Positions 11,459 to 57,584 of a stretch of DNA of 64,000 nt are shown piece after piece. Source of the stretch: Haloplasmatales bacterium 4B (GTDB lineage Bacteria > Bacillota_I > Bacilli_A > Haloplasmatales > Haloplasmataceae); assembly GCA_003586005.1 (NCBI GenBank), contig NSKI01000011.1:1-64000 (forward strand). The letters run 5' to 3'. Position 1 is the stretch's first letter; each line of letters starts with the position of its first letter. A program made the position numbers and the translations under genes. Under the pieces are notes generated by a model. The model was not told the origin of the DNA and ran no database searches. It worked only from the letters and a program-made list of their open reading frames with translations.

Positions 11459-11487
11459 AATGTTCATCTCTAATCTTATAAAATAAA

Positions 11488-21152: not shown

Positions 21153-21153
21153 C

Positions 21154-23682: not shown

Positions 23683-23694
23683 TATATCCCCTCC

Positions 23695-25794: not shown

Positions 25795-25796
25795 TA

Positions 25797-28928: not shown

Positions 28929-28929
28929 A

Positions 28930-37847: not shown

Positions 37848-38285
37848 TTAACTTATTACTTCAATAGTATCTCCAGGTCTTACAACACCACCTTTAAGCA
37901 CCTCTGTAAATATCCCTTCATTCGGCATAACACATTTACCAATTTTTTGAAAAATAGCACATTTGGAATGACAGGTTTTACCAATTTGAGTTACTCTTTG
38001 AGTGGTCTCACCAATTTTTAACACAGTTCCTACTGGTAATGAATATAATTCTATACCACTTGTCGTAATATTTTCAGCAAATGAACCTGAAGTTAAATTT
38101 TCTACACCTTGTTCAATCATCTTATTAATGCTTTCTTGAGATAGTAAACTTACCTGCCGATGCCAATTACCCGCATGAGCATCATCTTTTAATCCAAAGT
38201 TTTCGATAAAGATTCCCTCATTTATTTCTGCCTTAGGAATCCCCCTCTTTTTACTTATGTTAATTGAAATAACATTACCCTTCAT
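37848..38285 (-). CDS. MOSC-domain protein
   Basis: A 145-residue MOSC (Moco sulfurase C-terminal) domain protein: [45 protein letters not shown] and a Cys-containing [11 protein letters not shown] segment. Stand-alone MOSC proteins often accompany MoaC or MogA and are proposed to handle sulfur for molybdenum or tungsten cofactors. The 11-base overlap with moaC shows translational coupling. It is the last gene of the tungsten-cofactor operon. Confidence 0.88.
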
Positions 38286-38769
38286 TTATTTTCACATCCT
38301 TTTTTAGATAATGACCACTCTTACCACCAATTTTTTCAAGCAAACAGATGTCTTTAATCACCATGTCTTTATCTATAGCTTTACACATATCATAAATCGT
38401 TAATGCAGTCACCGAGACAGCTGTTAGTGCTTCCATTTCTACACCTGTCTTACCAACAGTATTAACTGAAGCAAAAATGTCTATTTCATTTTTCTCTTTA
38501 TTAATTTCAAAGTCTATATCTATGCCATCAATTAAAATATTGTGACACATCGGAATTAACTCACTAGTTTTTTTAGCCCCCATTATCCCTGCTACTTGGG
38601 AAACACTTAAGACATCTCCTTTTTTCATATGACCATCGATTATTTTAGCTAATGTTTCTGAATGCATTTTGATAGTACCCTTAGCAATTGCCTTTCTAGC
38701 TGTTTTTTCTTTTTCACTTACGTTAACAATTCTAGCACGTCCAAATTGATTAAAATGAGTTAATTTCAT
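38275..38769 (-). CDS. moaC: cyclic pyranopterin monophosphate synthase MoaC
   Basis: A 164-residue MoaC. Signature segments are present: [52 protein letters not shown] and KSGHY near the C-terminus, including the catalytic Lys and Asp-containing region. With MoaA it converts GTP to cyclic pyranopterin monophosphate. The start is the ATG at 38769 with GGAGG upstream; a longer in-frame alternative at 38802 would overlap moaA and lacks a site. Confidence 0.95.
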
Positions 38770-38770
38770 T

Positions 38771-39730
38771 TCATCCTCCAATTTTATACATATTCCTATC
38801 AACCTTTTGAAAATCTTTTTGATTAATTTTATGAGACTTAGGCTTTAACATGATACTATTTTTTAAAAAGTCCTCGATAGGCTCAATATCTTCCCTAATA
38901 CATTTTAAAAGGTCGTATTCAACATTACCATGTAAACAAGTTTTTAACAACCCATCAGAAGTAATTCTTAAGCGATTACAACTATTACAAAAATGATTAC
39001 TGATAGGGCTAATTAGCCCAATTTTCCCCTTATAATTTGGAACATTATAATAAATAGCAGTTTCAATATGTGAATTATCTAGTCTAGTTAGTTCAGGACA
39101 TTGTTTTAAGACTTCATTATTACTTAGATAATACTTTTCAAAAGGAAATTCATGACTACCAATTGGCATTAATTCTATAAAACGAACGATTACTTCTTTA
39201 TCTTTCGTTAAATTAATAAAGTCCATAATTTCATTATCATTAAATCCCTTCATTAAAACGACATTAATTTTGACTGGATTCATTTCTAAAAGCAGTAAAT
39301 TTTCAATGCTTTCTAAGATATCTAATATATTACCACCACCTGTAATATATTTAAATTTAACTGGGTCTAGAGTATCTAAACTTATATTAACTCTATCTAG
39401 CCCTGCTTTTTTTAGTTCCTTTATTTTTCTAGGTAGTAAAGACCCATTTGTCGTCATCACGACTTCGTTTATGCCATCAATAGCCTTAATTTTTGAAACA
39501 AGCTCAATAATACCATGACGCACAAGAGGCTCACCACCAGTTAAACGGATTTTATTAAAACCTATTTTACTAGCTCCCAAAACAATTTTTAAAATCTCAT
39601 CATCAGTCAAAAGTTTAGATTCTAAAAATGAAGGGCTATTATCGGGCTTACAGTATCGACAATTAAAATTACATTTGTCGGTTACTGATATTCTTAAGTA
39701 GTTTATCTCTCGATTATATCTATCCTGCAT
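38771..39730 (-). CDS. moaA: GTP 3',8-cyclase MoaA (radical SAM)
   Basis: A 319-residue MoaA. The N-terminal radical-SAM motif is CNFNCRYC (CxxxCxxC) and GGEP follows at [10 protein letters not shown]. The C-terminal second [4Fe-4S] cluster ligands are in [19 protein letters not shown], and the chain ends in Gly-Gly, as needed for MoaA activity. It forms 3',8-cyclo-GTP from GTP using SAM, the first step of molybdopterin synthesis. It lies 2 bases after the MoeA-PBP gene. Confidence 0.95.
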
Positions 39731-39732
39731 TT

Positions 39733-41661
39733 TTAACTACCTTTCTTTATCTCAATGACCTCACCAATATTATCAAACTTGTAACCACCAAGTGATTCCA
39801 CAAGTTTTTTAAATTTATCACCTTTTAATACCTGGATAAAGTCTTTGATTTGTTTTGAATCTAGTGCTGATTTTAAAATTAAAAAATCATAATCTTCATA
39901 GCCGATTGGGATAAAATCTAGATCAAAGATTTGTGCTGCAGACCTAACACCTAAACCACAATCAACTGTGTTAGCATAGACTGAGCTCGCAACCATCATG
40001 TGAGTTGTTACTTCAAATTCATAACCATTAATTAAATCTGGACTAATACCTGATTTATCTAATAAGTAATCAAACAATATTCTAGTTCCAGACCCCTTTT
40101 GTCTGTTAATGAAGGTTATATCAGATTTCGTTAAATCAGCTACTGACGAGATAAATTTGTCATTATCTTTTCTTATCATCAGCCCCTGTTCTCTTTTAAT
40201 CCCTTTTAATAAAACTACATCTTCATTATTAAAGTATTTATTTAAAATAGGTAGATTATAAATACCTGAATCTACATCTAAAATATGAATTGGGGCAATA
40301 TGACATTCCCCTCTTTTGATAGCCATAATGCCAGAGAAACTTCCGACATGAGCTGATGATAAACTTGTGTCCTTATCTTCTTCACGTAAGATATTCGCAA
40401 TATAATCTAAAACAATATCATGACTGCCGATAGAAACAATGGCACTTTCAATTTCTTCTATATCTTTCAATAACTCTACATCAACAACTTTGTTTGCTTC
40501 ATAGCCCTCAGATTTTTTATCAACACGTAAAAATCCGTCAGCATTAACTAAACTCATTGTAACTCCTGCTCCTCTACTTAAAGGAGTTGTAATTAACTTA
40601 TTCTTCACATAACCTAATTTAACCCTGACAAATTCAATACTGTTAAGAGAAGAATATATTTTTTTAGTTAGTACTGCTTTTACTTTCTTATTCCCTAATG
40701 ATACTTGATAATATAATCCGTTAAGTATTGGTTTAACAACTTGATCAAAAGCAATATAAGTTGATACAGGATACCCTGGTATTCCTATCACAGGAACATT
40801 TTTTACCATACCAATTATGACTGGCTTACCAGGCTTTATTGCGATACCATGAACAAATACCTCACCAATTTCTTTTATTATTGTCGCTGTAAAATCTTTA
40901 CTTCCACTTGAAGACCCAGCAATAACAATAACTACTTGGCTGTTTTGTGCCGCATTTAAAATATTATTTTTAATAAATTCATAATTATCTTTAATAGGAG
41001 GAATTATAGTTGATACTCCACCTAAATCACTAACACTATTTTTAATAAAGTGAGAATTAGAGTCAATAATTTTCCCTTTTTCCAATAGTTTGGAGTCACT
41101 TATAATTTCATCACCAGTTGGAATAATTGATATAATTGGCTTTTTATAAACACTAATTGTTTTAACTCCACCTGCTAGCATTGCAGCTACATCTACTGGT
41201 TTAATTTTATGCTTAGCTGGTATCACCATTTCATTAGCGACAATATCCTCACCTATAGGTCTAATATGCTGAAACTGACTACTTGGTTTATTAATAATTA
41301 AACTGTTTTCTTTTATATCAAGTAAATCTTCAATCATTATAACAGCATCATATGGGGGCTCTATAGGATCTCCTGTATTAATAAAAACATAATCCTCATC
41401 TTTAAGAAGTTCAATCGGATTAGTCAAATCGGCACTATGTGTTTTGTTTGCGATAACAGCAATACCATCCATCGCTGCCGCATTGTAGTAAGGTGATGAA
41501 ACAATAGAAAAAACAGCTTCTGTTGTAACTCTATGTAACCCATCTTCAACAGGAATTATTTCTTTATCTAATTTTTTACACTGTTTTAAGATAATGTTTT
41601 CAATAATATGTTGAGCTTCATCTAAGTCTACCGTATCTAAATACACATTTCTTTTAATCAA
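39733..41661 (-). CDS. MoeA fused to periplasmic-binding-like domain
   Basis: A 642-residue fusion. Residues ~1-405 are MoeA-like (YYNAAAMDGIAV, FINTGDPIEPPYDAVIMIED, IIPTGDEI, AGSSSGSKDFT, KPGKPVIIG, PGYPVS). Residues ~420-630 are a PBP-like/LysR-substrate-type domain (SIGSHDIVLDYIAN, RQKGSGTRILFDYLL, DCGLGVRSAA). MoeA inserts the metal into adenylylated molybdopterin; the added domain is assumed to bind molybdate or tungstate or to act as a sensor. Such fusions occur with a second, stand-alone MoeA, as here. Confidence 0.9.
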   Translation of the reverse strand: MIKRNVYLDTVDLDEAQHIIENIILKQCKKLDKEIIPVEDGLHRVTTEAVFSIVSSPYYNAAAMDGIAVIANKTHSADLTNPIELLKDEDYVFINTGDPIEPPYDAVIMIEDLLDIKENSLIINKPSSQFQHIRPIGEDIVANEMVIPAKHKIKPVDVAAMLAGGVKTISVYKKPIISIIPTGDEIISDSKLLEKGKIIDSNSHFIKNSVSDLGGVSTIIPPIKDNYEFIKNNILNAAQNSQVVIVIAGSSSGSKDFTATIIKEIGEVFVHGIAIKPGKPVIIGMVKNVPVIGIPGYPVSTYIAFDQVVKPILNGLYYQVSLGNKKVKAVLTKKIYSSLNSIEFVRVKLGYVKNKLITTPLSRGAGVTMSLVNADGFLRVDKKSEGYEANKVVDVELLKDIEEIESAIVSIGSHDIVLDYIANILREEDKDTSLSSAHVGSFSGIMAIKRGECHIAPIHILDVDSGIYNLPILNKYFNNEDVVLLKGIKREQGLMIRKDNDKFISSVADLTKSDITFINRQKGSGTRILFDYLLDKSGISPDLINGYEFEVTTHMMVASSVYANTVDCGLGVRSAAQIFDLDFIPIGYEDYDFLILKSALDSKQIKDFIQVLKGDKFKKLVESLGGYKFDNIGEVIEIKKGS

Positions 41662-41671
41662 ATCTACTCAC

Positions 41672-42904
41672 CTACAATTCATAAACTTTTACGATTTCAT
41701 CTGCTGATAGTCCCTCACAATTAGCTGATATTTTTATAAAACCTAACGCATTTGCGATTAAAGTTATTGTACCCGATTTACCATAAATTGGCTCAGCTAG
41801 ATACCCTTGGAGGGTGCTTATAATTTTAACCATTTGATATGTCTCTCTTCCTGGAGTTGAATGAACATTTTTAGTTAATGTTGCTTCAATATAAAATACC
41901 GGCTTAGCTTTACTACCAATTAACACTTGCTCTATATGATCGATGAATGTTTTAAAAACTATTAAAGCTGAAGCTGGCTGGCCTGGAAGTCCCACAATTA
42001 ATTTATCCCTTACTTTCGCAAATATAGATGGCTTTCCAGGTTTAATCGCTATACCATGAACAAATACGGAGTCACTTTCAATCTCATTTAATAACTTATG
42101 CGTAAAATCTTTATTTCCAACCGAACTTCCTCCAGAAATAATAACAATATCACTTTTTGTTATCGCATTTATAATTGTAGTTTTCAATATTCCCTCTTGA
42201 TCTCTTAAAACACAAAAATCTACTAAATACCCATTTCTTTCTAGTATCACACCAGATATTGTGTAGCTATTGATGTCCCTAATTTCTCCTATTTTAGGAG
42301 TAACGTTTGGACTTACAACTTCATCACCTGTTGAAATAACTGTAAACTTTAATTTTTTGTATACTTCTACAGTTTCATAGCCAATAGAAGCAAGGACTCC
42401 TAAATCTTGCGGCCCTATTAAGCTCCCTCTATCTAAGACCTGTTCCCCTATTTTAATATCCTCGCCCTTAAATAAAACATTTTCTTTAGGAGCCAATTTT
42501 GTATAAACAAATAAATCATCGCCATTTAATTGATCAGTATCTTCAATCATTACTACGCAATCAGCTCCAGTAGGCAATACTCCCCCAGTAGGAACATAAA
42601 TTGCTTCGCCATGATTAATGTTTGTTTTAGCATCATAACCCATCTCTACTTCACCCACGATTTTAAGAAAGGCTGGTAAAGATTCACTTGCTCCAACAAC
42701 ATCTTTACTCATTAAGGCATAACCATCAACTGTTGAACGATTAAAATGTGGCACATCACATTTAGAGAAAATTGGTTTTGCTAAATATCTGTTAAGCGAC
42801 TCAAATAATTTCACTTCTTCAGAATCTATCTCATAATTTGAAAATTTATCACTTATTAATTTTTTTGCTTCATCAATTGTACAAACATTAAACACTTTTT
42901 TCAC
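41672..42904 (-). CDS. moeA: molybdopterin molybdenum/tungsten-transferase MoeA
   Basis: A 410-residue MoeA with motifs VPHFNRSTVDGYAL, VPTGGVLPTGADCVVMIED, VISTGDEVV, SGGSSVGNKDFT, GIAIKPGKPSIFAK and GLPGQPASALIVF. It ligates the metal oxyanion to the dithiolene of adenylylated molybdopterin. The presumed start is a GTG at 42904 with a 17-base overlap into the tupC-like ATPase. Organisms using both metals often have two MoeA paralogues, one for Mo and one for W; position next to tupABC suggests tungsten here. Confidence 0.92.
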   Translation of the reverse strand: MKKVFNVCTIDEAKKLISDKFSNYEIDSEEVKLFESLNRYLAKPIFSKCDVPHFNRSTVDGYALMSKDVVGASESLPAFLKIVGEVEMGYDAKTNINHGEAIYVPTGGVLPTGADCVVMIEDTDQLNGDDLFVYTKLAPKENVLFKGEDIKIGEQVLDRGSLIGPQDLGVLASIGYETVEVYKKLKFTVISTGDEVVSPNVTPKIGEIRDINSYTISGVILERNGYLVDFCVLRDQEGILKTTIINAITKSDIVIISGGSSVGNKDFTHKLLNEIESDSVFVHGIAIKPGKPSIFAKVRDKLIVGLPGQPASALIVFKTFIDHIEQVLIGSKAKPVFYIEATLTKNVHSTPGRETYQMVKIISTLQGYLAEPIYGKSGTITLIANALGFIKISANCEGLSADEIVKVYEL

Positions 42905-43529
42905 CCATCTCTAATAGTGTATCTTTCAATATAAATTGTTTATCACTTATCGCATTTATAAAATCAATTTGATGTGATACAAAAATAATTGTTGTCTGTT
43001 TTTTTATTTTTAATAATATAGCTTTTAGCTTTTCAATTGATTCAATATCTAAATTTGTAGTTGGCTCATCAAGCAATAATAATTTTGGTTTGAAAATCAA
43101 ACTTCTAGCTAGTGCAATTTTCATTTTTTCTCCACTAGAACATTTCTTCGCTAATTGATTTTTGATATGATCAATTTCAAAATATTCTAAATAAGCATAA
43201 ACTTTATTTTCTAGTTTAGATGCATCACTTTTTCTTATTTTAAGTGGATAATAAATATTGTCATAAACTGTGCCATTAAAAATATAAGGGTTTTGCGAGA
43301 CATAGGTTATGTCTTTCATAAATTCATAATGCATAAGCTTATTGTCATATAAAATTTCGCCTTTATCATATAGCATTAAATTTGCGATTATTTGCAGTAA
43401 TGTTGTTTTTCCAGAACCATTTCTTCCTTTAATACAATAAGTCATGTTTTTATTAAATACAACATTATTAATATCTAGAATCAACTTGTTTTGATAATAT
43501 TTTTTTAGTTTATTAATTTCTATTTTCAT
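42888..43529 (-). CDS. tupC: tungstate ABC transporter ATPase TupC
   Basis: A 213-residue ABC ATPase: Walker A GRNGSGKTT, Walker B LLLLDEPTTNLD and switch VSHQ are intact. The signature is CSSGEKMKIALARS instead of LSGGQ, a departure that still keeps the Ser-Gly pair. It powers the TupB permease encoded directly upstream with a 4-base overlap. Confidence 0.9.
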   Translation of the reverse strand: MKIEINKLKKYYQNKLILDINNVVFNKNMTYCIKGRNGSGKTTLLQIIANLMLYDKGEILYDNKLMHYEFMKDITYVSQNPYIFNGTVYDNIYYPLKIRKSDASKLENKVYAYLEYFEIDHIKNQLAKKCSSGEKMKIALARSLIFKPKLLLLDEPTTNLDIESIEKLKAILLKIKKQTTIIFVSHQIDFINAISDKQFILKDTLLEMGEKSV

Positions 43530-44221
43530 AATTTATCACCAATTACATAATGGTATGCTATTGAATTAAATATAAAAGATAAGCTTATTAAAACTAGCCC
43601 CATCGCAATCGATTTGGCATAATTACCTTGACTATTGTTTAATGCAATGAATGTTGTCATAACCCTTGTTTGTCCTTTTATATTTCCACCAACAATCATT
43701 ACCGCACCCACCTCAGATATAGCACGAGAAAACCCAGCTACAAGTGCAATAAAAAGATAGACTTTTACTTCTTTAATTAACTTTATTAATATTTCAAATC
43801 GATTTGCACCCAAGGTTCTGCAAGTCGAAATAATCTCTTTTGAAATGTCAGAACAATTATTTAAAATTAAGCTAGTAATGATTGGCGTAACTAATAATAC
43901 TTGGGCAATAATCATCGCACTAGGTGTAAACAACAATTGAAATGTACCTAAGGGACCATTTCTCGCTAAGATTAAAAAGACAAATAGACCTAACACAACA
44001 GGAGGTAATCCCATTAAACTATATAATATTTTTGATGTAAATCGTTTAAATTTAAATTCATGAGTAGCCATCATTAACCCTGTAGGAACAGAAATAATCA
44101 ATGAAATAAATGTTGCTGTAAAAGATACAAAAAGTGATAAAAGAATTATCTCATACAATTCTTTATCTAAACTAAAAATAAGTTCAAATGCATCTTTAAT
44201 CCCATCAAAAATATAATTCAT
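43526..44221 (-). CDS. tupB: tungstate ABC transporter permease TupB
   Basis: A 231-residue permease with about five to six membrane helices and the coupling-loop region TLGANRFEILIKLI, followed by SRAISEVGAVMIVGGNIKGQT, a stretch typical of TupB/WtpB/ModB-type permeases. It forms the homodimeric channel for tungstate uptake with TupA and TupC. It starts 3 bases after tupA. Confidence 0.92.
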   Translation of the reverse strand: MNYIFDGIKDAFELIFSLDKELYEIILLSLFVSFTATFISLIISVPTGLMMATHEFKFKRFTSKILYSLMGLPPVVLGLFVFLILARNGPLGTFQLLFTPSAMIIAQVLLVTPIITSLILNNCSDISKEIISTCRTLGANRFEILIKLIKEVKVYLFIALVAGFSRAISEVGAVMIVGGNIKGQTRVMTTFIALNNSQGNYAKSIAMGLVLISLSFIFNSIAYHYVIGDKL

Positions 44222-44224
44222 TTT

Positions 44225-45031
44225 TTACTCCTTTGGTGCATTAGCTATAAATAAACTCTGATTATAGGTATCTTTCCCAAATTGATTTATAAGATTTTGG
44301 GCTTTTTCAGAAATAAGCCAATTATAAAAAATATCTGCATCATCATAATTAATTTGTTTATGTAATTCAGGATTAATTAAAATTACACCATATTGATTAA
44401 ATAAAACTTCATCATTTTCAAAAACAATTTTTAAATCCAGATTGTCTTTCATTGATAAATAGGTTGCACGGTCAGTAAGGGTAAATGCTTTTTCTTCACT
44501 TGCCAATGCTAATGTAGCACCCATACCTTGACCATTTTCAACATACCAATCTCCATTTGCTTCAATTTCATATTTTTCCCATAAAAATAATTCTTTAATA
44601 TGGGTCCCAGAATTATCACCACGAGAAATAAACTTTGACTCAGTTACATAAATTTCAGACAAAACTGACTCAAGTGTATTTTCACCAATATCCTTTGGAC
44701 CAACAATTACAAAGTCATTGTACATTAAATCGCTTCTTTTAATTCCATACCCATCATCCATGAATTGTAACTCACTTGGTTTAGCGTGGACCATTAAGAT
44801 ATCCGCTTCTCCCATTTTTCCTATCTCAAGGGCTGCCCCTGTTCCTACTGCGATTACTTTAACAGATATACCTTTTTCTTCTTCAAAATAAGGAAGTAGA
44901 TATTCTAATAATCCACTATTCTCGGTTGATGTTGTAGTAGCTAAAATAATTGCATGTTCATCTTTTTTTGAACAAGCAAATAACATTAACGTAATAAATA
45001 TAATAATTATTAAATTAAGTACTTTTTTCAT
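44225..45031 (-). CDS. tupA: tungstate-binding lipoprotein TupA
   Basis: A 268-residue solute-binding lipoprotein with lipobox MLFAC (Cys 20). The mature N-terminus LATTTSTENSGLLEYLLPYFEE is diagnostic of TupA, whose TTTS segment binds the oxyanion; FISRGDNSGTHIKE and GQGMGATL also match. TupA is highly selective for tungstate over molybdate. It lies 3 bases after the AOR-like gene, so tungsten uptake, cofactor making and the AOR-like protein are one transcript. Confidence 0.95.
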   Translation of the reverse strand: MKKVLNLIIIIFITLMLFACSKKDEHAIILATTTSTENSGLLEYLLPYFEEEKGISVKVIAVGTGAALEIGKMGEADILMVHAKPSELQFMDDGYGIKRSDLMYNDFVIVGPKDIGENTLESVLSEIYVTESKFISRGDNSGTHIKELFLWEKYEIEANGDWYVENGQGMGATLALASEEKAFTLTDRATYLSMKDNLDLKIVFENDEVLFNQYGVILINPELHKQINYDDADIFYNWLISEKAQNLINQFGKDTYNQSLFIANAPKE

Positions 45032-45034
45032 ATT

Positions 45035-46252
45035 TTATCTTCTTTCATTAAATTTTTTTTCTAAATTATATCCTCTTTCACCAATTAAGATAAACTCTTC
45101 CTTTGTGAGATTCAAACCTGTCACAGAATTTAGAACTTCTATTAACTTATCCTTGAGTTGAACTTGTAAAATCAAGGAACAAATTCCAATTGCCATACAA
45201 CTTTCCTTCAAATATTTAGCCGGCTTTTCCTTTTTTTGTATTTTAGGGTTAAATATTTCTTTATTATTAGCTTTCATTGAAATTTCTTTAATTAAACGTG
45301 AAATATTTTCAACACTATTAGTTTTAGAGAGTTCCTTTCTATTTATTAAGACATCAACTAAACTTATTGTATCTAAACCCATATCATCAGCAATATTCTT
45401 CCAAATAATCAGAGAATCTAGATTATTAATATTAACATAGTTCCCAAGTAGTTTTAGTTTATCGAGTTGTTTTGCTTTTATTATATTGCCTTTATAATCT
45501 AGAATTCTATCACATGAAGCTGGACATGTAATACAACCAGCATTTTTTAAAAGTTTATCATTATTGAGATAATGATTATCTTTTAGTCCATTAAACCAGT
45601 TTATTTCATCTTCTCGAATAACTTTAGGTACTTTTGACCCGTTCGCAACAATAGCTTTTAACTTTTTAGCTCCAAATATAGCACCAATTCCACTACGACC
45701 TGTAAATCTATCTTGAGAGAAAACTTCAGCATAACTCACTAAATTCTCCCCAGCTGGACCAATAACCAACTTACCAGATTTAGGTGCATACCTAGACAGT
45801 TTGCTTATAGTTATTTTAGTTGTATCCCCCCATAAATCAAATGCTTCATGAAATTTAATTATACCTTCACTAATTTCAACCCAAGTAGGAACTTTTGCGA
45901 CACCCGTAATAATTAGCGCATCTAATCCTGCATTTTTTAACCTCATACCAAAATTACCCCCGCAATCAGAAGAAACTAAGCAATTTGTATGCGGTGATAT
46001 TGAACTTATATTAAATCTATTTGAAGCGGGTACTTTAGTTAACGATAGTGGACCAGTTGAAATAACAATAATATTATCTAAATTAGATTTATCAGACTCA
46101 TTTGAAACAATATCAGTTATTATTTTATAAGCCATGATTTTCCCACCTAAATAAAGTCGTCGATCATTATCAGACCACGAATACTCAGATATTTCTTGTG
46201 TAGAAAGGTTTAGTTTTAAAACCTTCCCCATATATCCACCTAGAGTTGTCAA
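45035..46252 (-). CDS. short AOR-family (tungsten) protein lacking active-site segments
   Basis: About 405 residues against ~600 for aldehyde:ferredoxin oxidoreductases. The N-terminal AOR domain is clear: GGYMGKVLKLNLS, YLGGKIMA, STGPLSLTKVPASNRF, CGGNFGMRLKNAG, GPAGENL and GRSGIGAIFGAKKLKAI. Cluster ligands CITCPASC and a late GIC persist, as does the pterin motif DDMGLDTIS. However, the regions matching the active-site Glu (Glu313) and His (His448) of the Pyrococcus enzyme are altered or deleted. It may bind W-pterin and a [4Fe-4S] cluster yet not oxidise aldehydes. The start is uncertain: TTG 46252 (after AAGGTGA), GTG 46261 or ATG 46231 (after AGGTGG). First gene of the tup-moe-moa operon. 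Confidence 0.8.
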   Translation of the reverse strand: MTTLGGYMGKVLKLNLSTQEISEYSWSDNDRRLYLGGKIMAYKIITDIVSNESDKSNLDNIIVISTGPLSLTKVPASNRFNISSISPHTNCLVSSDCGGNFGMRLKNAGLDALIITGVAKVPTWVEISEGIIKFHEAFDLWGDTTKITISKLSRYAPKSGKLVIGPAGENLVSYAEVFSQDRFTGRSGIGAIFGAKKLKAIVANGSKVPKVIREDEINWFNGLKDNHYLNNDKLLKNAGCITCPASCDRILDYKGNIIKAKQLDKLKLLGNYVNINNLDSLIIWKNIADDMGLDTISLVDVLINRKELSKTNSVENISRLIKEISMKANNKEIFNPKIQKKEKPAKYLKESCMAIGICSLILQVQLKDKLIEVLNSVTGLNLTKEEFILIGERGYNLEKKFNERR

Positions 46253-46422
46253 ATCTATCACCTTTTCGCTAATTCTCGAGAAAAAAAACGCTTACCTTCA
46301 TTAATATAATAGCATATCTTGTTATAAAAATAAACAAACATATAAGATAGTTGAAACTGCTTAGAAGAATTAACTAAAGCCATCCTGATATTTAACTTAT
46401 CTCTTAGAACAACTTCCAAATA

Positions 46423-48993: not shown

Positions 48994-50220
48994 ATGAAAA
49001 AATTCATGTCTCTTATCACGGTTTTATTTTTAACTTTGGTATTAGCAGGTTGTTCTGATACAGAACAAACTAATGTAACAACTGAAGAACAAGCTGAACA
49101 ATCCATTGTCATTGAGTTAATCGATGCTTATGGTGTTACTACAAACACCACCATTACCCTAGATAAGGATGAAGATAAAACATTACTTACATTAATTGAG
49201 GAAAACATTGGATTAACTTATACTGAATCCGAATATGGTAAATATATTACCTCAATTGGGGGTGTAACACCCAAAGCTGGTTCTTATTTATCCTTATCAA
49301 AAAATGGGGAAGTATTGGAAGTCGGAATCGATGAAATCACATATAAATCAGAAGATATCATTACTTTCGAAATAATATGGTGGGATAGTGTATTACAAGA
49401 AGTGGATTTGGCTATTACTAAATTCGTTGAAAACTATGCTTCTACCTATGTCAATGAGACAATAATAGATTATAATGTTGCTGCAGCGCTTTATCATTTA
49501 GGTATCATAGATCAATTTTTAACCTTGGATGAAGTGAATACATTATATAAGGACTTGACTACTGATAATAGTAGTGAATTGTTTAGAGCGATTGTTGCTG
49601 TTAAGGCAGCAGGTGGAAACCCTACCGATGTATTGGGTAACAATTTAATCAGTCAATTAGTCGATGTAGCTGAAACAAATCAGTTTAGTGCCCCCTATAG
49701 TTTAATGGCCTTAAATACTGATAATTATACACAAGATACATTCACTTACGAACAAATTGTAGTTACGCTGCTAAGCACAACTAATCCCCCTTTGAATGCG
49801 GGATTAGATCTTGGAGGGATATCACTTGTTGCACTTGCACCTTATCTTGATCAAGTGGAAGTAAAAGCGGCAATTGACGCCTTTGTTTCAGATGTATCAG
49901 AAAAACAGTTCGCTAATGGTGGCATTGCTGACACAACAATGTGGTCAAGCGGTGAGAATGCTTCAAGTATGTCCCAAGTTGTGATGGGGTTGATAGCTGT
50001 GGGTGAAAATCCGCAAGGAGAATCATTTACAAAGGCTGATGGAGATTTAATTACATGTTTATTAAAATATCATCAGGGAGATGGGTCTTTTAAATGGAAA
50101 TTAGACAGTGAATCTGCAGATTTAGATTTTTCAACTCCTCAAGCGTTTGCGGCTCTTGTTATGTTGCAACAGTATGCAGAGAACAAAGTAGCTATCCAAT
50201 TATTTGATTTTAGCGAATAA
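48994..50220 (+). CDS. transcobalamin-like B12-binding lipoprotein
   Basis: A 408-residue lipoprotein with lipobox VLAGC (Cys 20). Residues ~38-130 resemble a DUF4430 domain (TLLTLIEENIGLTYTESEYGKYITSIGG, LSLSKNGE). From ~140 to 400 a helical repeat region (AALYHLGII, FRAIVAVKAAGGNPTDV, SMSQVVMGLIAVGENP, HQGDGSFKW, TPQAFAALVML) resembles the alpha6/alpha6 barrel of prenyltransferase-like and transcobalamin/intrinsic-factor proteins. Animal B12 carriers join the same two domains in the opposite order. Being first under a B12 riboswitch, it probably captures cobalamin outside the membrane and passes it to the S component encoded two genes on. The ATG follows AAAGGAGAGG. Confidence 0.85.
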   Translation: MKKFMSLITVLFLTLVLAGCSDTEQTNVTTEEQAEQSIVIELIDAYGVTTNTTITLDKDEDKTLLTLIEENIGLTYTESEYGKYITSIGGVTPKAGSYLSLSKNGEVLEVGIDEITYKSEDIITFEIIWWDSVLQEVDLAITKFVENYASTYVNETIIDYNVAAALYHLGIIDQFLTLDEVNTLYKDLTTDNSSELFRAIVAVKAAGGNPTDVLGNNLISQLVDVAETNQFSAPYSLMALNTDNYTQDTFTYEQIVVTLLSTTNPPLNAGLDLGGISLVALAPYLDQVEVKAAIDAFVSDVSEKQFANGGIADTTMWSSGENASSMSQVVMGLIAVGENPQGESFTKADGDLITCLLKYHQGDGSFKWKLDSESADLDFSTPQAFAALVMLQQYAENKVAIQLFDFSE

Positions 50221-50240
50221 ATTTAGTTAGGTGGGATGAC

Positions 50241-50687
50241 ATGAAAAAAACTTTGATTAAAATAACCTTGACTGTCTTTGTGGTGGCAATCTTAGTATTA
50301 GTCATTCAATACTTTTCACAAACTGGAAAAGCTGAATCTGATGGAACAATTATTTTTGTCTTGATTGATGAATCGGGTGAGGAAATAATCCGCCAATCGG
50401 TTGACTATACCCGCTTAAAAGAAGACGGGGACCCCAACACATTATTCGATATTTTGAACTCAGAATTTAATGTAGTTTGTGCGGGTGCTATGTATCAAAA
50501 AGATGAAACCTGTAGCCACTCATTTACCAATGGTCATGTCATTTTGTCGGTTGAAACAGTAGAAACAGATTTTTTTAATAGCTATATAGAAATCTATCAT
50601 AATGGTGTCTATTCGAATAAAGGAATTAGTTTGATTGAGTTTAAGGATAAAGACGTAATTGAACTAAGATATAAGCAGGTGGGCTAA
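50241..50687 (+). CDS. membrane-anchored DUF4430 protein
   Basis: A 148-residue protein with an N-terminal signal anchor (helix at ~7-25) and a DUF4430-type domain (NTLFDILNSEFNV, IEIYHNGVYSNKGISLIEFKDKDVIEL). It lacks a lipobox and the alpha barrel of the preceding gene. A Cys pair (VVCAGAM and DETCSHS) may form a disulphide. It likely helps bind or hand over cobalamin. It lies 20 bases after the transcobalamin-like gene, with GGTGGGATGAC before the ATG. Confidence 0.8.
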   Translation: MKKTLIKITLTVFVVAILVLVIQYFSQTGKAESDGTIIFVLIDESGEEIIRQSVDYTRLKEDGDPNTLFDILNSEFNVVCAGAMYQKDETCSHSFTNGHVILSVETVETDFFNSYIEIYHNGVYSNKGISLIEFKDKDVIELRYKQVG

Positions 50688-50690
50688 ATA

Positions 50691-51185
50691 ATGAAAATAA
50701 AAGATATTGCCTTGTTGGCATCCTTTGTCGCCATTGTATTTGTACAAGAACAAGCTTTAATGCTTTTGCCAAATATTCAGTTCACAACACTTTTAATTGT
50801 TCTTTATACAAAACTACTTTCATTCAAGAAAGCTGTTGCTGTTATTATCGTCTATGTCTTTCTCGACAGTTTACTTTGGCTTGGTATGGGCATCGTTTAT
50901 GTTCCTACATTGTTATTAGGATGGTTGTTAATTCCAGTTCTTCTACATACTGTCTTTAAGCGACTAGAAACTTCCTTAGAACTTGCAATCTTCGGTTTGG
51001 TTTTTGGCTTTGTATATGGTTGGATTCAAATACCTGCGGCCGTGTTAATAACAAATGTGCCGTTTATTCCATACTTAGTAGCGGATATTCCATTTGAGGC
51101 TATAATGGCAATTTCTAATTTTCTAACAATATTATGGTTATATGAACCACTTCATAAAAGAATCAAAATGATTCAATCTTCTTAA
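50691..51185 (+). CDS. ECF-type transporter S component, probable cobalamin
   Basis: A 164-residue protein with five to six hydrophobic segments, the length and layout of energy-coupling-factor S components (LLPNIQFTTLLIVLYTKLL, WLLIPVLLHTVF, LVFGFVYGWIQIPAAVLI). S components bind a vitamin and use a shared ATPase module, here encoded elsewhere. Position under a B12 riboswitch and next to two presumed B12-binding proteins makes cobalamin the likely substrate. It starts 3 bases after the preceding stop. Confidence 0.82.
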   Translation: MKIKDIALLASFVAIVFVQEQALMLLPNIQFTTLLIVLYTKLLSFKKAVAVIIVYVFLDSLLWLGMGIVYVPTLLLGWLLIPVLLHTVFKRLETSLELAIFGLVFGFVYGWIQIPAAVLITNVPFIPYLVADIPFEAIMAISNFLTILWLYEPLHKRIKMIQSS

Positions 51186-51368: not shown

Positions 51369-52148
51369 TCAATAAATTATTCTTTTGGCGTCATGATATA
51401 TATTCATTCTTTCTCCTCTTACAAAACCAATTAACGCTACATTAAAATTCTCAGCAATTTTTACTGCTAAATCAGTAGGAGCAGAACGACTAATAATTAT
51501 CGGTATTTTTGCTTTTAGTGTTTTAAGAAGCATTTCCGAAGAAATACGACCACTTGTAAATAAAACTGTTTTAGATAAATCTAAATTATTAAGTATAGCA
51601 TCACCAATTATTTTATCGATTGTGTTATGTCTTCCAACATCTTCACAAAATGTAAGAATTGACTCACTGTTAGTTAACATTGATGAATGGACTCCACCTG
51701 TTTCTAAAAACAAAGTTGATTTATTATTTAAATCTTTACTCAGTTCAATTATCTTTTGATAGTGAATTTTAAAATCACTAACAATTTCCCTTAATTTTAT
51801 AGAGTCAATTGGATGATATAATATAGTGTTATTTCCACATCCGGTAGTTTTTGCTCTTTTTCCTGATAACTTTTTTGTAAGATCAATTTCATTATTTAAA
51901 TTTACTCGAACAACCCCTTTACTTTGATTAACATATATATCAAAAACATCTTCCTTAGTACTTATAAAACCTTCAGAAAATAAATACCCATAAGCCAATT
52001 CTTTTAAGTTTTTTGGTGTACATAAAAGGGTTATAATTTCTTCTTTATTTACAATAATAGTTAAAGGATATTCACAAATTACTGTATCATTTTCTACAGT
52101 AACTTTTTTGTTTTTGATTTTTTTAATTTCAACTACCGTTTTATCCAT
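51369..52148 (-). CDS. fdhD: formate dehydrogenase sulfurtransferase FdhD
   Basis: A 259-residue FdhD: LAYGYLFSEGFI, a Cys motif RAKTTGCGNNT, HSSMLTNSE, CEDVGRHNTIDKIIGDAI, LFTSGRISSEML and IISRSAPTDLAVKIA. FdhD passes sulfur to the metal of the bis-nucleotide cofactor before insertion into formate dehydrogenase. The usual CxxC pair is reduced to one Cys here (CGNN), the second position being Asn. The ATG overlaps the mobA stop. Last gene of the operon. Confidence 0.93.
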   Translation of the reverse strand: MDKTVVEIKKIKNKKVTVENDTVICEYPLTIIVNKEEIITLLCTPKNLKELAYGYLFSEGFISTKEDVFDIYVNQSKGVVRVNLNNEIDLTKKLSGKRAKTTGCGNNTILYHPIDSIKLREIVSDFKIHYQKIIELSKDLNNKSTLFLETGGVHSSMLTNSESILTFCEDVGRHNTIDKIIGDAILNNLDLSKTVLFTSGRISSEMLLKTLKAKIPIIISRSAPTDLAVKIAENFNVALIGFVRGERMNIYHDAKRIIY

Positions 52149-52749
52149 TTATTATCACATCAACTTTTAAATAATTTTCGATATCTTTAATTGTATTTAA
52201 ATTATAAAACATCTTTTTGTCATATGAATTAATTATTTGTCTATCAATTACTTGATAATTTAATTTTTTAATTAAATCTTTTAGGCCATATATACTACTA
52301 TTTTCAACAAAACCTTCAATTTCTTCAAACACAGTTTTATGGTATACCGCATTAAATGGTTCAAGATAACCATTTACTTCTGATAATAATACATCTTTGT
52401 TAAAATGAGTTAATAACTCATCCATAAACGCTATAAATCCTAGATTTATAAATGGCATATCACAAGCAATTACATAACTATATGAGCTAGTTGTATGCTT
52501 TAAGCCTACATGCAACCCAGCTATTGGACCAATTTGATGGTATTCATCACTAACAATTTTTACAGATTCATCATTATAACTTGTCAAATTATTACTGACG
52601 ACAATTATTTCTTTAAAAAGCTCTTTTAAGATATTAATTTGATAATCAAGTAAGCGACCATCTTTATAAGGAATATTGATTTTATCAAATCCCATTCGTG
52701 AACTTTTACCACCAGCTAAGATAATAGCTGTCTTGCATTTTTTCAACAT
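52141..52749 (-). CDS. mobA: molybdenum cofactor guanylyltransferase MobA
   Basis: A 202-residue nucleotidyltransferase starting TAIILAGGKSSRMGFDKI, with IACDMPFIN near residue 93 (metal-binding Asp) and YLEPFNAVY near 127. It transfers GMP from GTP to the metal-pterin to form the bis-MGD cofactor of the formate dehydrogenase encoded directly upstream. The start codon overlaps that gene's stop. Confidence 0.93.
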   Translation of the reverse strand: MLKKCKTAIILAGGKSSRMGFDKINIPYKDGRLLDYQINILKELFKEIIVVSNNLTSYNDESVKIVSDEYHQIGPIAGLHVGLKHTTSSYSYVIACDMPFINLGFIAFMDELLTHFNKDVLLSEVNGYLEPFNAVYHKTVFEEIEGFVENSSIYGLKDLIKKLNYQVIDRQIINSYDKKMFYNLNTIKDIENYLKVDVIING

Positions 52750-55442
52750 TTGTTTACTTTAACTGCACAAACCTTAAATTCTGGAATGTTGCAAATATCA
52801 TCTAGAGCTGGGTTTGTTAACATATTAGCTCCATCAGCAAAGTGAAATGGCATAAATACTACTCCATCATCAATTGTATCGGTAATTTGTACTTTTGCAA
52901 CTGATGAACCACGTCTAGAACTAACTGTTATAAATTCGTTATGTTTTAATTGATATTGTTTTGCGGTATCTGGTGATACTTGAATAAAATTATCTGGAAC
53001 AGTTGCTTTTAATCCCTCAACTCTATCAGTCATTGTTTTAGTATGAAAATGATATAAAGTTCTACCAGTTGTTAGTATTAATGGATATTCTGAATCAGGT
53101 AGTTCTTGTGGTCCTAAATGCTCAATTGGCGTAAATATTGCTTTCCCTAATTTAGTGAATCCATCTTTATATAAATATTTTGTGCCAGGATGGTTGCTAG
53201 TTGGGCATGGCCATTGCATACCATTATCATCAATTCGATCATAATCTAAACCAGCATAAATTGGTGTTAACGAAGCCATTTCCTTAAATATATCTTCAGC
53301 ATTATTATAATTAGCTTCAAGACCAAGACGAGTAAGCAATTCACTTAAAATTTCCCAATCACTACGAGCATTTCCTTTTATTGTTACAGCTTTTCTAATC
53401 CGTTGAACACGACGTTCTGTATTAGTAAATGTCCCATCTTTTTCAGCATAACTTGCGGCGGGTAATACGACATCAGCAAATTCTGCAGTTTGTGTTAAAA
53501 AGATATCTTGGACAACTAAAAAATCTAAATTAGTTAACGCTTTTTTAATATGATTTGTATCAGGATCTGATACTACTGGATTCTCACCCATTATATACAT
53601 GAATTTAATATCTTGAGAAGAAGCTTCATTCATCATTATCGGTAAAGTATGCCCAACTTCTCTAGAAAGACTTACTCCCCATGCTTTTTCATATTTTTTA
53701 GCAACTGCATCATCAAATACTTTTTGATAACCTGGTAAAACATCTGGTAGTGCCCCCATGTCACAAGCACCTTGAACATTATTTTGCCCACGCAATGGAT
53801 TAATACCAGTAGATTCTTTACCAACGTTACCAGTCATAAGCGCTAAATTGGCCATAGATTTTACATGATTAGTACCACTACTATGTTGAGTTATTCCCAT
53901 TGCGTAATAAATTGCGGCTCTATCAGCAGAGGCATAAAGGCGAGCAGCCTTGACAATATCCTCTTTACTAACGCCACATATTTCTGCGGCTTTTTCAGGA
54001 GTATACTCCTTTATAACTTCTAGTAAATCTTCTAAGTTGTTAGTGTTTTTATTAATAAATTCTTTGTCGTATAAACCTTCGTTGTAAATAACATTCATTA
54101 ATCCATTTGCGAGAGCAACATTTGTCCCCGGTTTTATTTGCAAGTGGACATTTGCCATGTTAGCTAGTTCAATTTTACGAGGGTCAGCTACAATTAATTT
54201 CGCACCTTTTTTTACTCTTTGTTTTATCATTACCCCAATTACAGGATGAGTTTCAGTTGTGTTTGAACCAATTACTAGGAAGGTATCTGTGCCACCAATT
54301 TCAGAAATACTATTTGTCATCGCTCCACTTCCAAGAGTCGTTGCTAAACCAGCAACTGTTGAAGCATGACAAAGCCTTGCACAATGGTCAACATTATTTG
54401 TTCCAAATCCCGCTCTAACAAGTTTCTGCATTAAGTAATTTTCTTCATTTGTACATTTTGCTGATGAAAGACCTGAGAATGCATTTGGACCATGTTTTGC
54501 TTTCGTTTCATTAATCTTCTTAACGATTAGATCCATTGCTTCTTCCCATGTAGACTCAACAAATACACCATCTTTTTTAATTAAAGGTTGTTTTAAACGA
54601 TCCGGATGGTTAATAAACTTATAGCCAAACGAGCCTTTAACACAAAGTAATCCATCATTTGTCCCACCTTTAACAGGTTCAACACGCACAACCTTATTAT
54701 CCTTAACAACTAAATTAAATTGGCAACCCACACCACAATAAGGACATGTTGTTTTAATTTTATCAACTTCCCAATTACGATATTTATCTTTAGTTTTTGG
54801 CATTAAAGCTCCAACAGGACAGTTATTAACACAATTTCCACATGATACACATTTATATAAGTCAATAACACCATCTATTGAATCATCATGTTGTTTTATT
54901 TTAATATGGGTATCTATTCCTCTTTCATCAAAACCAATGGCTGATGTCATTTGAAGTTCTGAACAAATTTGTACACATTTACCGCACAAAATACATTTTC
55001 GACTATCAAAAGTATAAAATTCATTAGAATTATCAATGAAATCCCTACTATTAAGCGGTTTAAAGATGCTATCAGGATTTACATTATATTGATAACTATA
55101 ATCTTGTAGTTTACATTCTCCAGATTTCTCACATACTAGACATTCGTTAGGATGATTTGCCCACATAAGTTCCAGAATTCCCTTACGTGTTTCAACTACA
55201 TTTTTGGTATTAGTACGAACAACCATACCATCTCTTACTTTAGTAGAGCAAGCAGTCATTAAATTTCTTGCTCCTTCAACCTCAACCACACACATCCGGC
55301 AAGAACCAGTAGGGTTTAATCTATCATCATGGCAGAAAGTAGGTATGTCAATATTTAATAATCTTGCAGCTTCAAGAATTGTTAAATCATTATCTATCTC
55401 AACACTCATATTATTTATCAGAATTTTTACTTTATTGCTCAA
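52743..55442 (-). CDS. fdhA: formate dehydrogenase alpha subunit (Cys type, FeS-rich)
   Basis: An 899-residue catalytic subunit. N-terminal NuoG-like part: [2Fe-2S] ligands (CHDDRLNPTGSCRMC), a His-Cys cluster motif (HPNECLVCEKSGEC) and two [4Fe-4S] motifs (CILCGKCVQIC, CVSCGNCVNNC). The molybdopterin enzyme follows with CPYCGVGC near 236 and the active site CARLCHAST, where the metal ligand is Cys in place of the Sec of many FdhF enzymes. A C-terminal nucleotide-binding domain ends the chain. It oxidises formate or reduces CO2 with Mo or W bis-MGD. Start is TTG at 55442 (after AGAGGGGG), overlapping the nuoF-like stop as TTGA. Confidence 0.93.
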   Translation of the reverse strand: MSNKVKILINNMSVEIDNDLTILEAARLLNIDIPTFCHDDRLNPTGSCRMCVVEVEGARNLMTACSTKVRDGMVVRTNTKNVVETRKGILELMWANHPNECLVCEKSGECKLQDYSYQYNVNPDSIFKPLNSRDFIDNSNEFYTFDSRKCILCGKCVQICSELQMTSAIGFDERGIDTHIKIKQHDDSIDGVIDLYKCVSCGNCVNNCPVGALMPKTKDKYRNWEVDKIKTTCPYCGVGCQFNLVVKDNKVVRVEPVKGGTNDGLLCVKGSFGYKFINHPDRLKQPLIKKDGVFVESTWEEAMDLIVKKINETKAKHGPNAFSGLSSAKCTNEENYLMQKLVRAGFGTNNVDHCARLCHASTVAGLATTLGSGAMTNSISEIGGTDTFLVIGSNTTETHPVIGVMIKQRVKKGAKLIVADPRKIELANMANVHLQIKPGTNVALANGLMNVIYNEGLYDKEFINKNTNNLEDLLEVIKEYTPEKAAEICGVSKEDIVKAARLYASADRAAIYYAMGITQHSSGTNHVKSMANLALMTGNVGKESTGINPLRGQNNVQGACDMGALPDVLPGYQKVFDDAVAKKYEKAWGVSLSREVGHTLPIMMNEASSQDIKFMYIMGENPVVSDPDTNHIKKALTNLDFLVVQDIFLTQTAEFADVVLPAASYAEKDGTFTNTERRVQRIRKAVTIKGNARSDWEILSELLTRLGLEANYNNAEDIFKEMASLTPIYAGLDYDRIDDNGMQWPCPTSNHPGTKYLYKDGFTKLGKAIFTPIEHLGPQELPDSEYPLILTTGRTLYHFHTKTMTDRVEGLKATVPDNFIQVSPDTAKQYQLKHNEFITVSSRRGSSVAKVQITDTIDDGVVFMPFHFADGANMLTNPALDDICNIPEFKVCAVKVNKC

Positions 55443-56995
55443 TTTAATACCCCCTCTGTAATAATCGCGTCAACAGGACATACTTCAAAACATGTACCAC
55501 ACTTAATACATTCATCTTGATTTATAACATGCAGCCCTTTTAATTCTCCGCCTATACAATTTGTTGGACATTTCTTAGCACAAATTCGGCAACCGATACA
55601 TGAATTTGTAATCTCATATTTATTGATTAAATCCTTACAAACGCTCGATTCACATTTCTTATCAACGATATGTGCCACATATTCATCTCTAAAATTATTT
55701 AGAGTTGAAAGAACTGGATTAGGTGCAGTTTGTCCAAGACCACATAGTGAAGCTTTTTTGACTAAACGTGCGAGTTCTTCAAGTTTTTCCAAATCCTTTA
55801 ATTCTGCCTGACCGCTTGTAATTTTATCTAGTAAATTATACATGTGCATAGTTCCTTCTCGACAAGGAGTACACTTTCCACATGATTCATCAACTATGAA
55901 ATCAAGGTAAAACTTGGCGATATCGACCATACAATTATGATCATCTAAAACAATCATTCCCCCTGAACCCATCATTGAACCTAATTCAATTAAAGTATCA
56001 AAATCAACTGAAGCGTTTAAATCTTTTTCAGTCAAACACCCCCCTGAAGGTCCACCAGTAAGTACTGCTTTAAATTTTCTTTGCTTTTTGGCCATTCCAC
56101 CACCAATTTCATTAATGATTTCACCAAGTGTAATCCCCATTGGAACTTCAATTAATCCTGAATTTTTGACTTTACCAGCAAGCGCGAAGACCTTTGTCCC
56201 AGGTGATTTATCAGTACCATATCCTCTAAACCATTTCGCTCCATTATTGATAATTTGGGGAATATTTGCTAATGTTTCCACGTTATTAATAATAGTAGGT
56301 TTTTGCCATAAACCTTTCTCAGCCGGAAATGGTGGCTTATTTCTACTCATACCGCGATCACCTTCAATTGAAGAAATCAACGCAGTTTCTTCTCCACAGA
56401 CAAAAGCTCCTGCTCCAAGCCTAATATCAATATCAAAATTGAAATCTGTTTCTAATATGTTTTGACCAAGCAAGCCATTTTTGCGAGCTGAATTAATCGC
56501 AATTTGCATTCTTTTAGCAGCTAGTGGATATTCAGCACGAACATAAATATAGCCGTATTTAGCACCTATCGCATAAGCCGCGATCGCCATTCCTTCAATA
56601 ATAACGTGCGGATCTTTCTCAAGGACAGATCTGTCCATAAACGCTCCAGGGTCACCTTCATCTGCGTTACAAATAAGATATTTTTGTTCTGACTCATTAT
56701 TTAAAGCAAACTGCCATTTAGTACCTGTAGAAAATCCTCCTCCACCACGTCCACGAAGACCAGATTCTTTTACAATATCAATTACTTCTTTACTTGTTAA
56801 TTTTGTTAAGACTTTATTCAATGAAAAATATCCATCACGAGCAATATATTCATTAATATTTTCAGGGTCAATTAAATCACAATTCCTTAATACAACTCTA
56901 ACTTCTTTATCATGCCCGCGCAGATCTTTATCAAATTTATTGCCTACAGTTTCTAAAGTATCACTCTTTATTTTTTCTAACTCAGTTAAATTCAT
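55439..56995 (-). CDS. NuoF/HydB-like flavin subunit of formate dehydrogenase
   Basis: A 518-residue NADH-binding flavoprotein: GRGGGGFSTGTKW (NADH/FMN site), NADEGDPGAFMDR, GAGAYVCGEE-like GAGAFVCGEETAL, and cluster ligands ESCGKCTPCREGT. The C-terminus adds two [4Fe-4S] motifs (CIGCRICAKKCP, CIKCGTCFEVCP) as in HydB/HndC, pointing to ferredoxin interaction or flavin-based electron bifurcation. It links formate oxidation to NAD. The N-terminal thioredoxin-like [2Fe-2S] domain of longer homologues is missing. Confidence 0.92.
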   Translation of the reverse strand: MNLTELEKIKSDTLETVGNKFDKDLRGHDKEVRVVLRNCDLIDPENINEYIARDGYFSLNKVLTKLTSKEVIDIVKESGLRGRGGGGFSTGTKWQFALNNESEQKYLICNADEGDPGAFMDRSVLEKDPHVIIEGMAIAAYAIGAKYGYIYVRAEYPLAAKRMQIAINSARKNGLLGQNILETDFNFDIDIRLGAGAFVCGEETALISSIEGDRGMSRNKPPFPAEKGLWQKPTIINNVETLANIPQIINNGAKWFRGYGTDKSPGTKVFALAGKVKNSGLIEVPMGITLGEIINEIGGGMAKKQRKFKAVLTGGPSGGCLTEKDLNASVDFDTLIELGSMMGSGGMIVLDDHNCMVDIAKFYLDFIVDESCGKCTPCREGTMHMYNLLDKITSGQAELKDLEKLEELARLVKKASLCGLGQTAPNPVLSTLNNFRDEYVAHIVDKKCESSVCKDLINKYEITNSCIGCRICAKKCPTNCIGGELKGLHVINQDECIKCGTCFEVCPVDAIITEGVLN

Positions 56996-57007
56996 CTTAT
57001 CACCCCT

Positions 57008-57481
57008 TTATTTATATTTTTTTAATATTTTCTCAATTTGATCAACAGTTACGTGCCCATACTGATCCTCATCAATCATAACAACAGGTGCTTTCCCACA
57101 ATCACCTAAACATCTTGTAGGTGCAATTGTAAACAATCCATCTTTTGTTGTTTGACCATAAGGTGTTTTTAAAATTTCACATACTTTATCCACTAATTTT
57201 TGTGATCCCTTTACATAACAAGCGGTTCCTGTACATACACCTACGATGTGTTTTCCTCTTGGTTTCGTAGAAAACATTGTGTAAAACGATACAACACCAC
57301 TAATTTTACTATAACTTTCATTTAAAGCTTTAGAAATGTATTCCTGAATTTCTTCAGATACACATCCAAAAATTCTCTGAGCATCTTGTAATGTTGGCAT
57401 TAATGGTCCAGGTTTTAGTTTGTTTTTCTCGATGCACTCATCAAGAACCTTAAATTTTTCATTTGTATAAATCTCTTTCAT
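57008..57481 (-). CDS. NuoE/HydC-like [2Fe-2S] subunit
   Basis: A 157-residue thioredoxin-fold subunit with four cluster ligands in CTGTAC and CLGDCG. It is the smallest partner of the NAD-linked formate dehydrogenase trimer and first gene of the five-gene operon. The start is the ATG at 57481 with GAGG 8 bases upstream; an in-frame ATG at 57529 has no site. Confidence 0.92.
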   Translation of the reverse strand: MKEIYTNEKFKVLDECIEKNKLKPGPLMPTLQDAQRIFGCVSEEIQEYISKALNESYSKISGVVSFYTMFSTKPRGKHIVGVCTGTACYVKGSQKLVDKVCEILKTPYGQTTKDGLFTIAPTRCLGDCGKAPVVMIDEDQYGHVTVDQIEKILKKYK

Positions 57482-57584
57482 CCTATCATCCTCATAAAAA
57501 TTATTTCCCTCAAAACTTTCTACTGTCATTATAACATAAATTATATTCTAGAAAACCAGCAATTCTGTTAATCGTTCTAAAAAA

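Follow-up and report, generated by a model that had tools for sequence, protein, structure and literature searches.

Which role could be kept by a protein of the WOR/AOR family that leads a tungstate-uptake operon and is too short to carry the acid/base residues of the active site? The gene is found in a stretch of 64,000 nucleotides of Haloplasmatales bacterium 4B (contig NSKI01000011.1), which we call here the window. A sequence-only reading of this DNA had proposed either an enzyme-derived protein that binds tungsten-pterin as a carrier, store or sensor, or a decaying gene. The gene and the parts of its product to which we refer are given below; the residue numbering of the short WOR is that of the 408-aa frame, and G001 is a related genome that carries a second short copy.

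45035..46261, minus strand: short WOR-like pseudoenzyme gene; open frame with AFOR_N and partial AFOR_C, and a G001 homologue that lacks the same blocks
45638..46228, minus strand: complete AFOR_N domain (pterin platform), residues 12-208; Pfam PF02730, 187 bits
45512..45535, minus strand: CxxCxxxC = C243, C246, C250 (PfAOR Cys288, 291, 295), Fe4S4 ligands by the residue map; kept in both short forms
45461..45463, minus strand: Asp267, at the position of catalytic Glu313, where G001 has Val; residue map
45362..45388, minus strand: DDMGLDTIS pterin motif, D292-S300, aligned with PfAOR Asp338-Ser346
45215..45256, minus strand: junction of the ~120-residue deletion (Tyr427 and His448 gone), residues 336-349; alignment, low pLDDT at 336-346
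45179..45181, minus strand: C361 (PfAOR Cys494), fourth Fe4S4 ligand; residue map

The frame can be read from a GTG, which yields 408 aa (45035-46261, minus strand), or from a TTG at 46252, which yields 405 aa. Judging from the sequence, the TTG is probably the start, since a Shine-Dalgarno sequence (AGGTGAT) precedes it with suitable spacing and the resulting N-terminus matches those of WORs. The product scored above the Pfam cut-offs for both AFOR domains: AFOR_N matched over profile positions 1-198 of 199 (187 bits; cut-off 29.8), and AFOR_C (PF01314) was covered only in part, with a best stretch limited to profile positions 58-136 of 385 (66 bits; cut-off 27). This bears out the AOR-family protein of ~405 residues with an AOR N-terminal domain that had been described before. 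The top match in a phmmer search of the PDB was PfAOR (1aor, 3e-43), recovered in three pieces: residues 9-215 aligned with PfAOR 3-212, 237-319 with 282-365, and 370-406 with 503-539. With 405-408 aa here and 359 aa in G001, both chains fall short of a three-domain WOR of ~600 residues.

We transferred the 1aor numbering through a full-length relative (L003) and obtained a residue map. In the alignment, three blocks of full-length WOR are absent: ~45-60 residues ahead of CxxCxxxC, including Thr243; ~120 residues between PfAOR 365 and 485, including Tyr427 and His448; and the C-terminal ~65 residues. The sequence-only reading had claimed the absence of a single part of ~150 residues carrying His448; the His448 block is indeed missing, but as one of three. 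According to two studies (PMC12096430; PMC13328260), Thr243, Glu313, Tyr427 and His448 are the second-shell residues of AOR. Three of them were removed with the deleted blocks. The loop of the remaining one has changed from GPExET to AKQLDK in the short WOR, which agrees with the Lys/Gln-rich sequence noticed earlier in this region, although the Glu313 column itself holds an Asp. The loss of acid/base residues turned out to be stronger than first stated, as all four second-shell residues are gone in both short forms, which belong to two genera.

Other parts of the protein were retained. The CxxCxxxC, the late Cys and the DDMGLDTIS that had been reported were all located by the map against PfAOR, and the four Fe4S4 cysteines (C243, C246, C250 and C361) are likewise present in G001. 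PfAOR Asp338..Asp343 correspond to D292..D297, where Asp338, Gly341, Leu342 and Asp343 are retained, and DxxGLD is kept in both short forms. Arg76 and Gly95 of PfAOR are also retained; Asn93 is replaced by Asp and Ala183 by Phe. The column of PfAOR Asp489, presumably a pterin contact, holds Met in the short WOR and is already Ser in both full-length sisters described below. Asn93 and Ala183 contribute main-chain contacts to the Mg ion that bridges both pterins (PMC12096430; PMC13328260); for contacts of this kind, these two substitutions may be of little consequence. The G001 form additionally lacks the platform residues Arg182, Gly185 and Arg186. When the 76 family-invariant residues aligned in both short forms were considered, 45 were retained in both, and the losses common to both are concentrated at the Glu313 loop and at the deletion edges.

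The AlphaFold2 model of the short WOR (pLDDT 80.7, pTM 0.84) presented low pLDDT at residues 1-5, 227-242 and 336-346, the last two being deletion junctions. A Foldseek search with this model gave nine WOR-family chains and then nothing notable (1aor, 7.8e-27, TMq 0.80). The model of the G001 form was of low confidence beyond the N-terminal domain. The short WOR is like the large subunit of WOR/AOR (PfAOR, 1aor; Clostridium autoethanogenum AOR, 9g7j) in AFOR_N, in CxxCxxxC with the late Cys, in DxxGLDTxS and in predicted fold, but it is ~200 residues shorter, lacks the three blocks and keeps none of the four second-shell residues.

The genes that accompany the short WOR are the following:

46294..46356, minus strand: upstream stretch conserved with G001, containing a TATGCTATTAT box (promoter-like); local alignment
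44225..45031, minus strand: tupA, tungstate-binding protein; NF041772 3e-67, below the equivalog cut-off
43526..44221, minus strand: tupB, permease; NF038017 / NF041773
42888..43529, minus strand: tupC, ATPase; ABC_tran, with WtpC/TupC models among the best matches
41672..42904, minus strand: moeA1; MoeA_N, MoCF_biosynth, MoeA_C
39733..41661, minus strand: moeA2 fused to a PBP-like domain; PF03453, PF00994, PF03454, PF12727, NF011068 above cut-off
38771..39730, minus strand: moaA; sequence, Mob_synth_C match
38275..38802, minus strand: moaC; sequence, gene order conserved in relatives
37848..38285, minus strand: MOSC-domain protein; sequence, gene order conserved in relatives
51369..57529, minus strand: formate dehydrogenase (FDH) block of nuoE-like, nuoF-like, fdhA, mobA and fdhD; FdhD Pfam, Molydop_binding in fdhA, G001 match

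A gap of 3 nt separates the short WOR from tupA, in agreement with the earlier claim that it is the first gene of a tupABC operon, and the operon continues after tupABC with moeA, moeA-PBP, moaA, moaC and MOSC. Tungsten-using relatives conserve this pairing of a plain MoeA with one that carries a fused periplasmic-binding-protein-like domain. The FDH block lies on the same strand, ~5 kb upstream of the short WOR. A riboswitch controlling the operon was discarded, because Rfam at the gathering threshold gave only two riboswitches, both elsewhere in the window: a cobalamin riboswitch (RF00174; 48712-48883, plus strand), ahead of a group of secreted-lipoprotein/membrane-protein genes (48994-51185), and a c-di-GMP-I riboswitch (RF01051; 11559-11644, minus strand), directly upstream of a GGDEF-protein-like gene (10424-11467). 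In the region 16203-30378 (minus strand), a leucine-rich-repeat lipoprotein-like protein of 1649 aa is encoded beside four ABC-transporter/permease fusion proteins.

One short homologue was found in a set of 60 relatives. It belongs to G001, a Haloplasma MAG (labelled Haloplasma contractile isolate B5_bin.1) from a different genus of the same family; it has 359 aa and 37% identity by BLAST, lacks the same three blocks in the alignment and overlaps tupA by 4 nt. The G001 operon runs on a single strand as short WOR-tupA-tupB-tupC-moeA-moeA/PBP-moaA-moaC-MOSC-nuoE-nuoF-fdhA-mobA-fdhD. Its first nine genes have the same order in the window, and the FDH block, 59-82% identical between both genomes, is continuous with the tup operon in G001. 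Conservation extends to ~60 nt 5' of the short WOR, where the local alignment scored 46 against a best of 38 in 200 shuffles.

Across the order (n=8 genomes), the short WOR, TupA and a full Molydop_binding (FDH) match co-occurred in the same two genomes, with weak partial matches in two others; the genome studied here encodes a single AFOR_N protein and a single Molydop_binding protein, the FDH. A wider scan of genome contigs for short forms gave no more than the Haloplasma MAG and a WOR of 573 aa from Desulfarculaceae, and the viral contigs searched gave no match. The class sample contained full-length WORs only, plus one fragment at a contig end. The plasmid search matched 82 records, 2 of them with a place that spans 80% or more of the query; the 15 matches listed are annotated as ordinary AOR family proteins. 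By these searches the short form appears in two genomes so far, among the genomes searched.

In the tree, both short proteins formed one clade (support 98/96), whose sister sequences, the closest ones found, were the full-length WORs of two relatives, G021 and G125 (support 95/94 and 100/98), with 44% and 38% identity, respectively, to the short WOR over shared columns. Both short forms have long branches, and long-branch attraction is a possible source of their grouping; the three deletions common to both speak for a single origin. The G021 and G125 proteins differ from the short WOR in that all four catalytic residues are present, in that they adjoin an iron-type alcohol dehydrogenase gene (identified by reading the sequences) and in that they are not first in a tup operon. 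Other WORs of the class are encoded divergently from the same tup-moe-moa cluster, with MoaD-like and ThiF genes. Descent of the short WOR from a full-length WOR of the branch beside iron alcohol dehydrogenase appears likely from the tree. The proposed derivation from an enzyme that lost its catalytic residues is well supported by the tree, the shared deletions and the second-shell losses in two genera.

Another aspect to consider is whether the gene is under constraint. Between the window and G001, no gene of the operon has evolved faster than the short WOR (43% identity and dN 0.54, compared with 59-82% and 0.13-0.31 for the others), and this rapid evolution possibly reflects weak constraint or a new role. 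Its pN (0.38) is below its pS (0.60), at a dS of ~1.2, a near-saturated synonymous divergence. When neutral drift was simulated to d = 0.2, which is six times smaller than the estimated synonymous divergence, ~13 stops accumulated and none of 1000 runs kept an open frame. Since neutral drift would have disrupted the frame, and no stop or frameshift is present, we consider that it is under constraint. A decaying gene as the main reading was rejected on the basis of this open frame and simulation, of the synteny, of the conserved upstream region and of a homologue in a second genus (37-43% identity) that shares both the deletions and the operon place. A milder version of this explanation is a relic that is kept translated by its first place in the operon and its coupling to tupA, its biochemical role being nearly gone. 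The dN, the long branches of both short forms and the loss of the platform arginines in G001 agree with it; the intact frame, the pN below pS and the retention of every cluster ligand in both short forms do not, and we regard it as unlikely.

Since a second genus has retained this short gene as leader of the same operon, a helper in making or handing over the FDH cofactor is probably a better explanation than a broken gene. What the protein retains, what it lost and its context of tungstate uptake, MoeA-type metal insertion and FDH are most simply read together as a holder of tungsten-pterin bound for FDH. We therefore propose, tentatively and at somewhat less than even chances, that the protein is a non-catalytic derivative of WOR, binding an Fe4S4 cluster and perhaps a W-bis-pyranopterin, and that it aids the assembly or hand-over of the FDH cofactor. 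An ancestral full-length WOR would have lost its substrate cavity and the acid/base residues of the proton relay and retained the N-terminal pterin platform, the Fe4S4 site and one pterin motif. The resulting pseudoenzyme would have been kept at the head of the tungsten-cofactor operon serving formate dehydrogenase. Either tungsten-bis-pyranopterin or a pterin intermediate that precedes it may be held beside the cluster in an open site with no substrate pocket, and kept or passed between MoeA, MobA/FdhD and FdhA. Pterin binding and the hand-over to FDH are what we infer from residues and gene context. The broader idea, that a WOR pterin platform and Fe4S4 site freed from catalysis became a dedicated station for the tungsten cofactor of an unrelated tungstoenzyme (FDH), is possible but doubtful.

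Several observations speak against a cofactor holder: much of the pterin surroundings (domain 3) is absent, G001 lost platform residues, its model is of low confidence outside the N-terminal domain, the gene evolves faster than the rest of the operon, and only two genomes are seen to have it. Against the need for a short WOR, other tungsten or molybdenum users of the class make the cofactor without one. For the tungsten FDH of Methylorubrum extorquens, PMC13197769 places MoeA1, MobB, MobA and FdhD on the cofactor route, with no WOR-like helper named in the abstract. Among the roles suggested before, which sequence does not distinguish, a carrier or assembly factor fits the gene neighborhood best, and a sensor is unsupported, with no DNA-binding or signalling domain found in the protein.

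A new catalytic or redox role, in which the Fe4S4 cluster, with or without W-pterin, would serve electron transfer, for example as an FDH partner, has in our opinion only a small chance. It would explain the four cluster cysteines retained in both short forms and the FDH genes in the same operon of G001, but the neighbors of the gene are those for tungstate uptake and the cofactor and not the FDH subunits, and NuoE/NuoF-like electron partners already belong to the FDH block.

As the genome studied here, rated 100% complete, gave no match for MoaE or MoaD/ThiS, the short WOR was a candidate for the sulfur step, substituting MoaD/MoaE (MPT synthase) as the site of pterin dithiolene formation in a genome with MoaA, MoaC and FDH. 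Nevertheless, no MoaE was found in any of the 395 genomes sampled from the class, which include 22 with a strong MoaA match and about ten MoaA-positive ones lacking a detected WOR, and MoaE-free MPT synthesis thus does not require a short WOR. Only AFOR domains were found by Pfam in the protein, with no MoaE or MoaD/ThiS domain. The class-wide absence of MoaE and the WOR-free, MoaA-positive genomes weaken this candidate, which we consider very improbable. A MOSC gene stands beside moaA/moaC in nearly every such cluster of the class and might hint at how the missing sulfur step is done. Very improbable, too, is a split enzyme, in which another gene would supply the missing catalytic blocks to the short WOR, as no missing-block piece was found in the window or in ~33 kb of G001, the part that is retained has itself lost the Glu313 loop, and three separate deletions are common to two divergent genomes.

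If the short WOR is a cofactor helper, its possible likeness to XdhC, FdhD, the algal Moco carrier protein and NifEN is that of a non-catalytic holder of a metal cofactor; to our knowledge, none of these is homologous to WOR. NifEN derives from an enzyme and serves its own paralogue, unlike the case proposed here, in which FDH is unrelated to WOR. The Tub/Mop tungstate/molybdate storage proteins, which have a TOBE domain (PMC11980592), would share with the short WOR a possible tungsten-keeping role beside TupABC, but Tub binds the oxyanion and not a pterin. A Tub-type tungstate store was discarded, since Pfam found no TOBE domain (PF03459) in the short WOR. The 2026 WOR classification (PMC13328260) treats WorL, in its available text, as a two-domain protein, and that text does not include a short non-catalytic form; a literature search on truncated AOR with tupA found nothing further in open-access main text. 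By sequence, the short WOR is a real and conserved variant of a known family, with a proposed function.

Little is understood of how cells choose tungsten over molybdenum and bring it to formate dehydrogenase. A naturally non-catalytic WOR, found in both cases beside tungstate-transport and FDH genes, would offer a handle on a cofactor intermediate, and it would also show what the WOR scaffold needs merely for holding the cofactor. A protein above both AFOR Pfam cut-offs need not be an aldehyde oxidoreductase, and counts of WOR enzymes may include pseudoenzymes.
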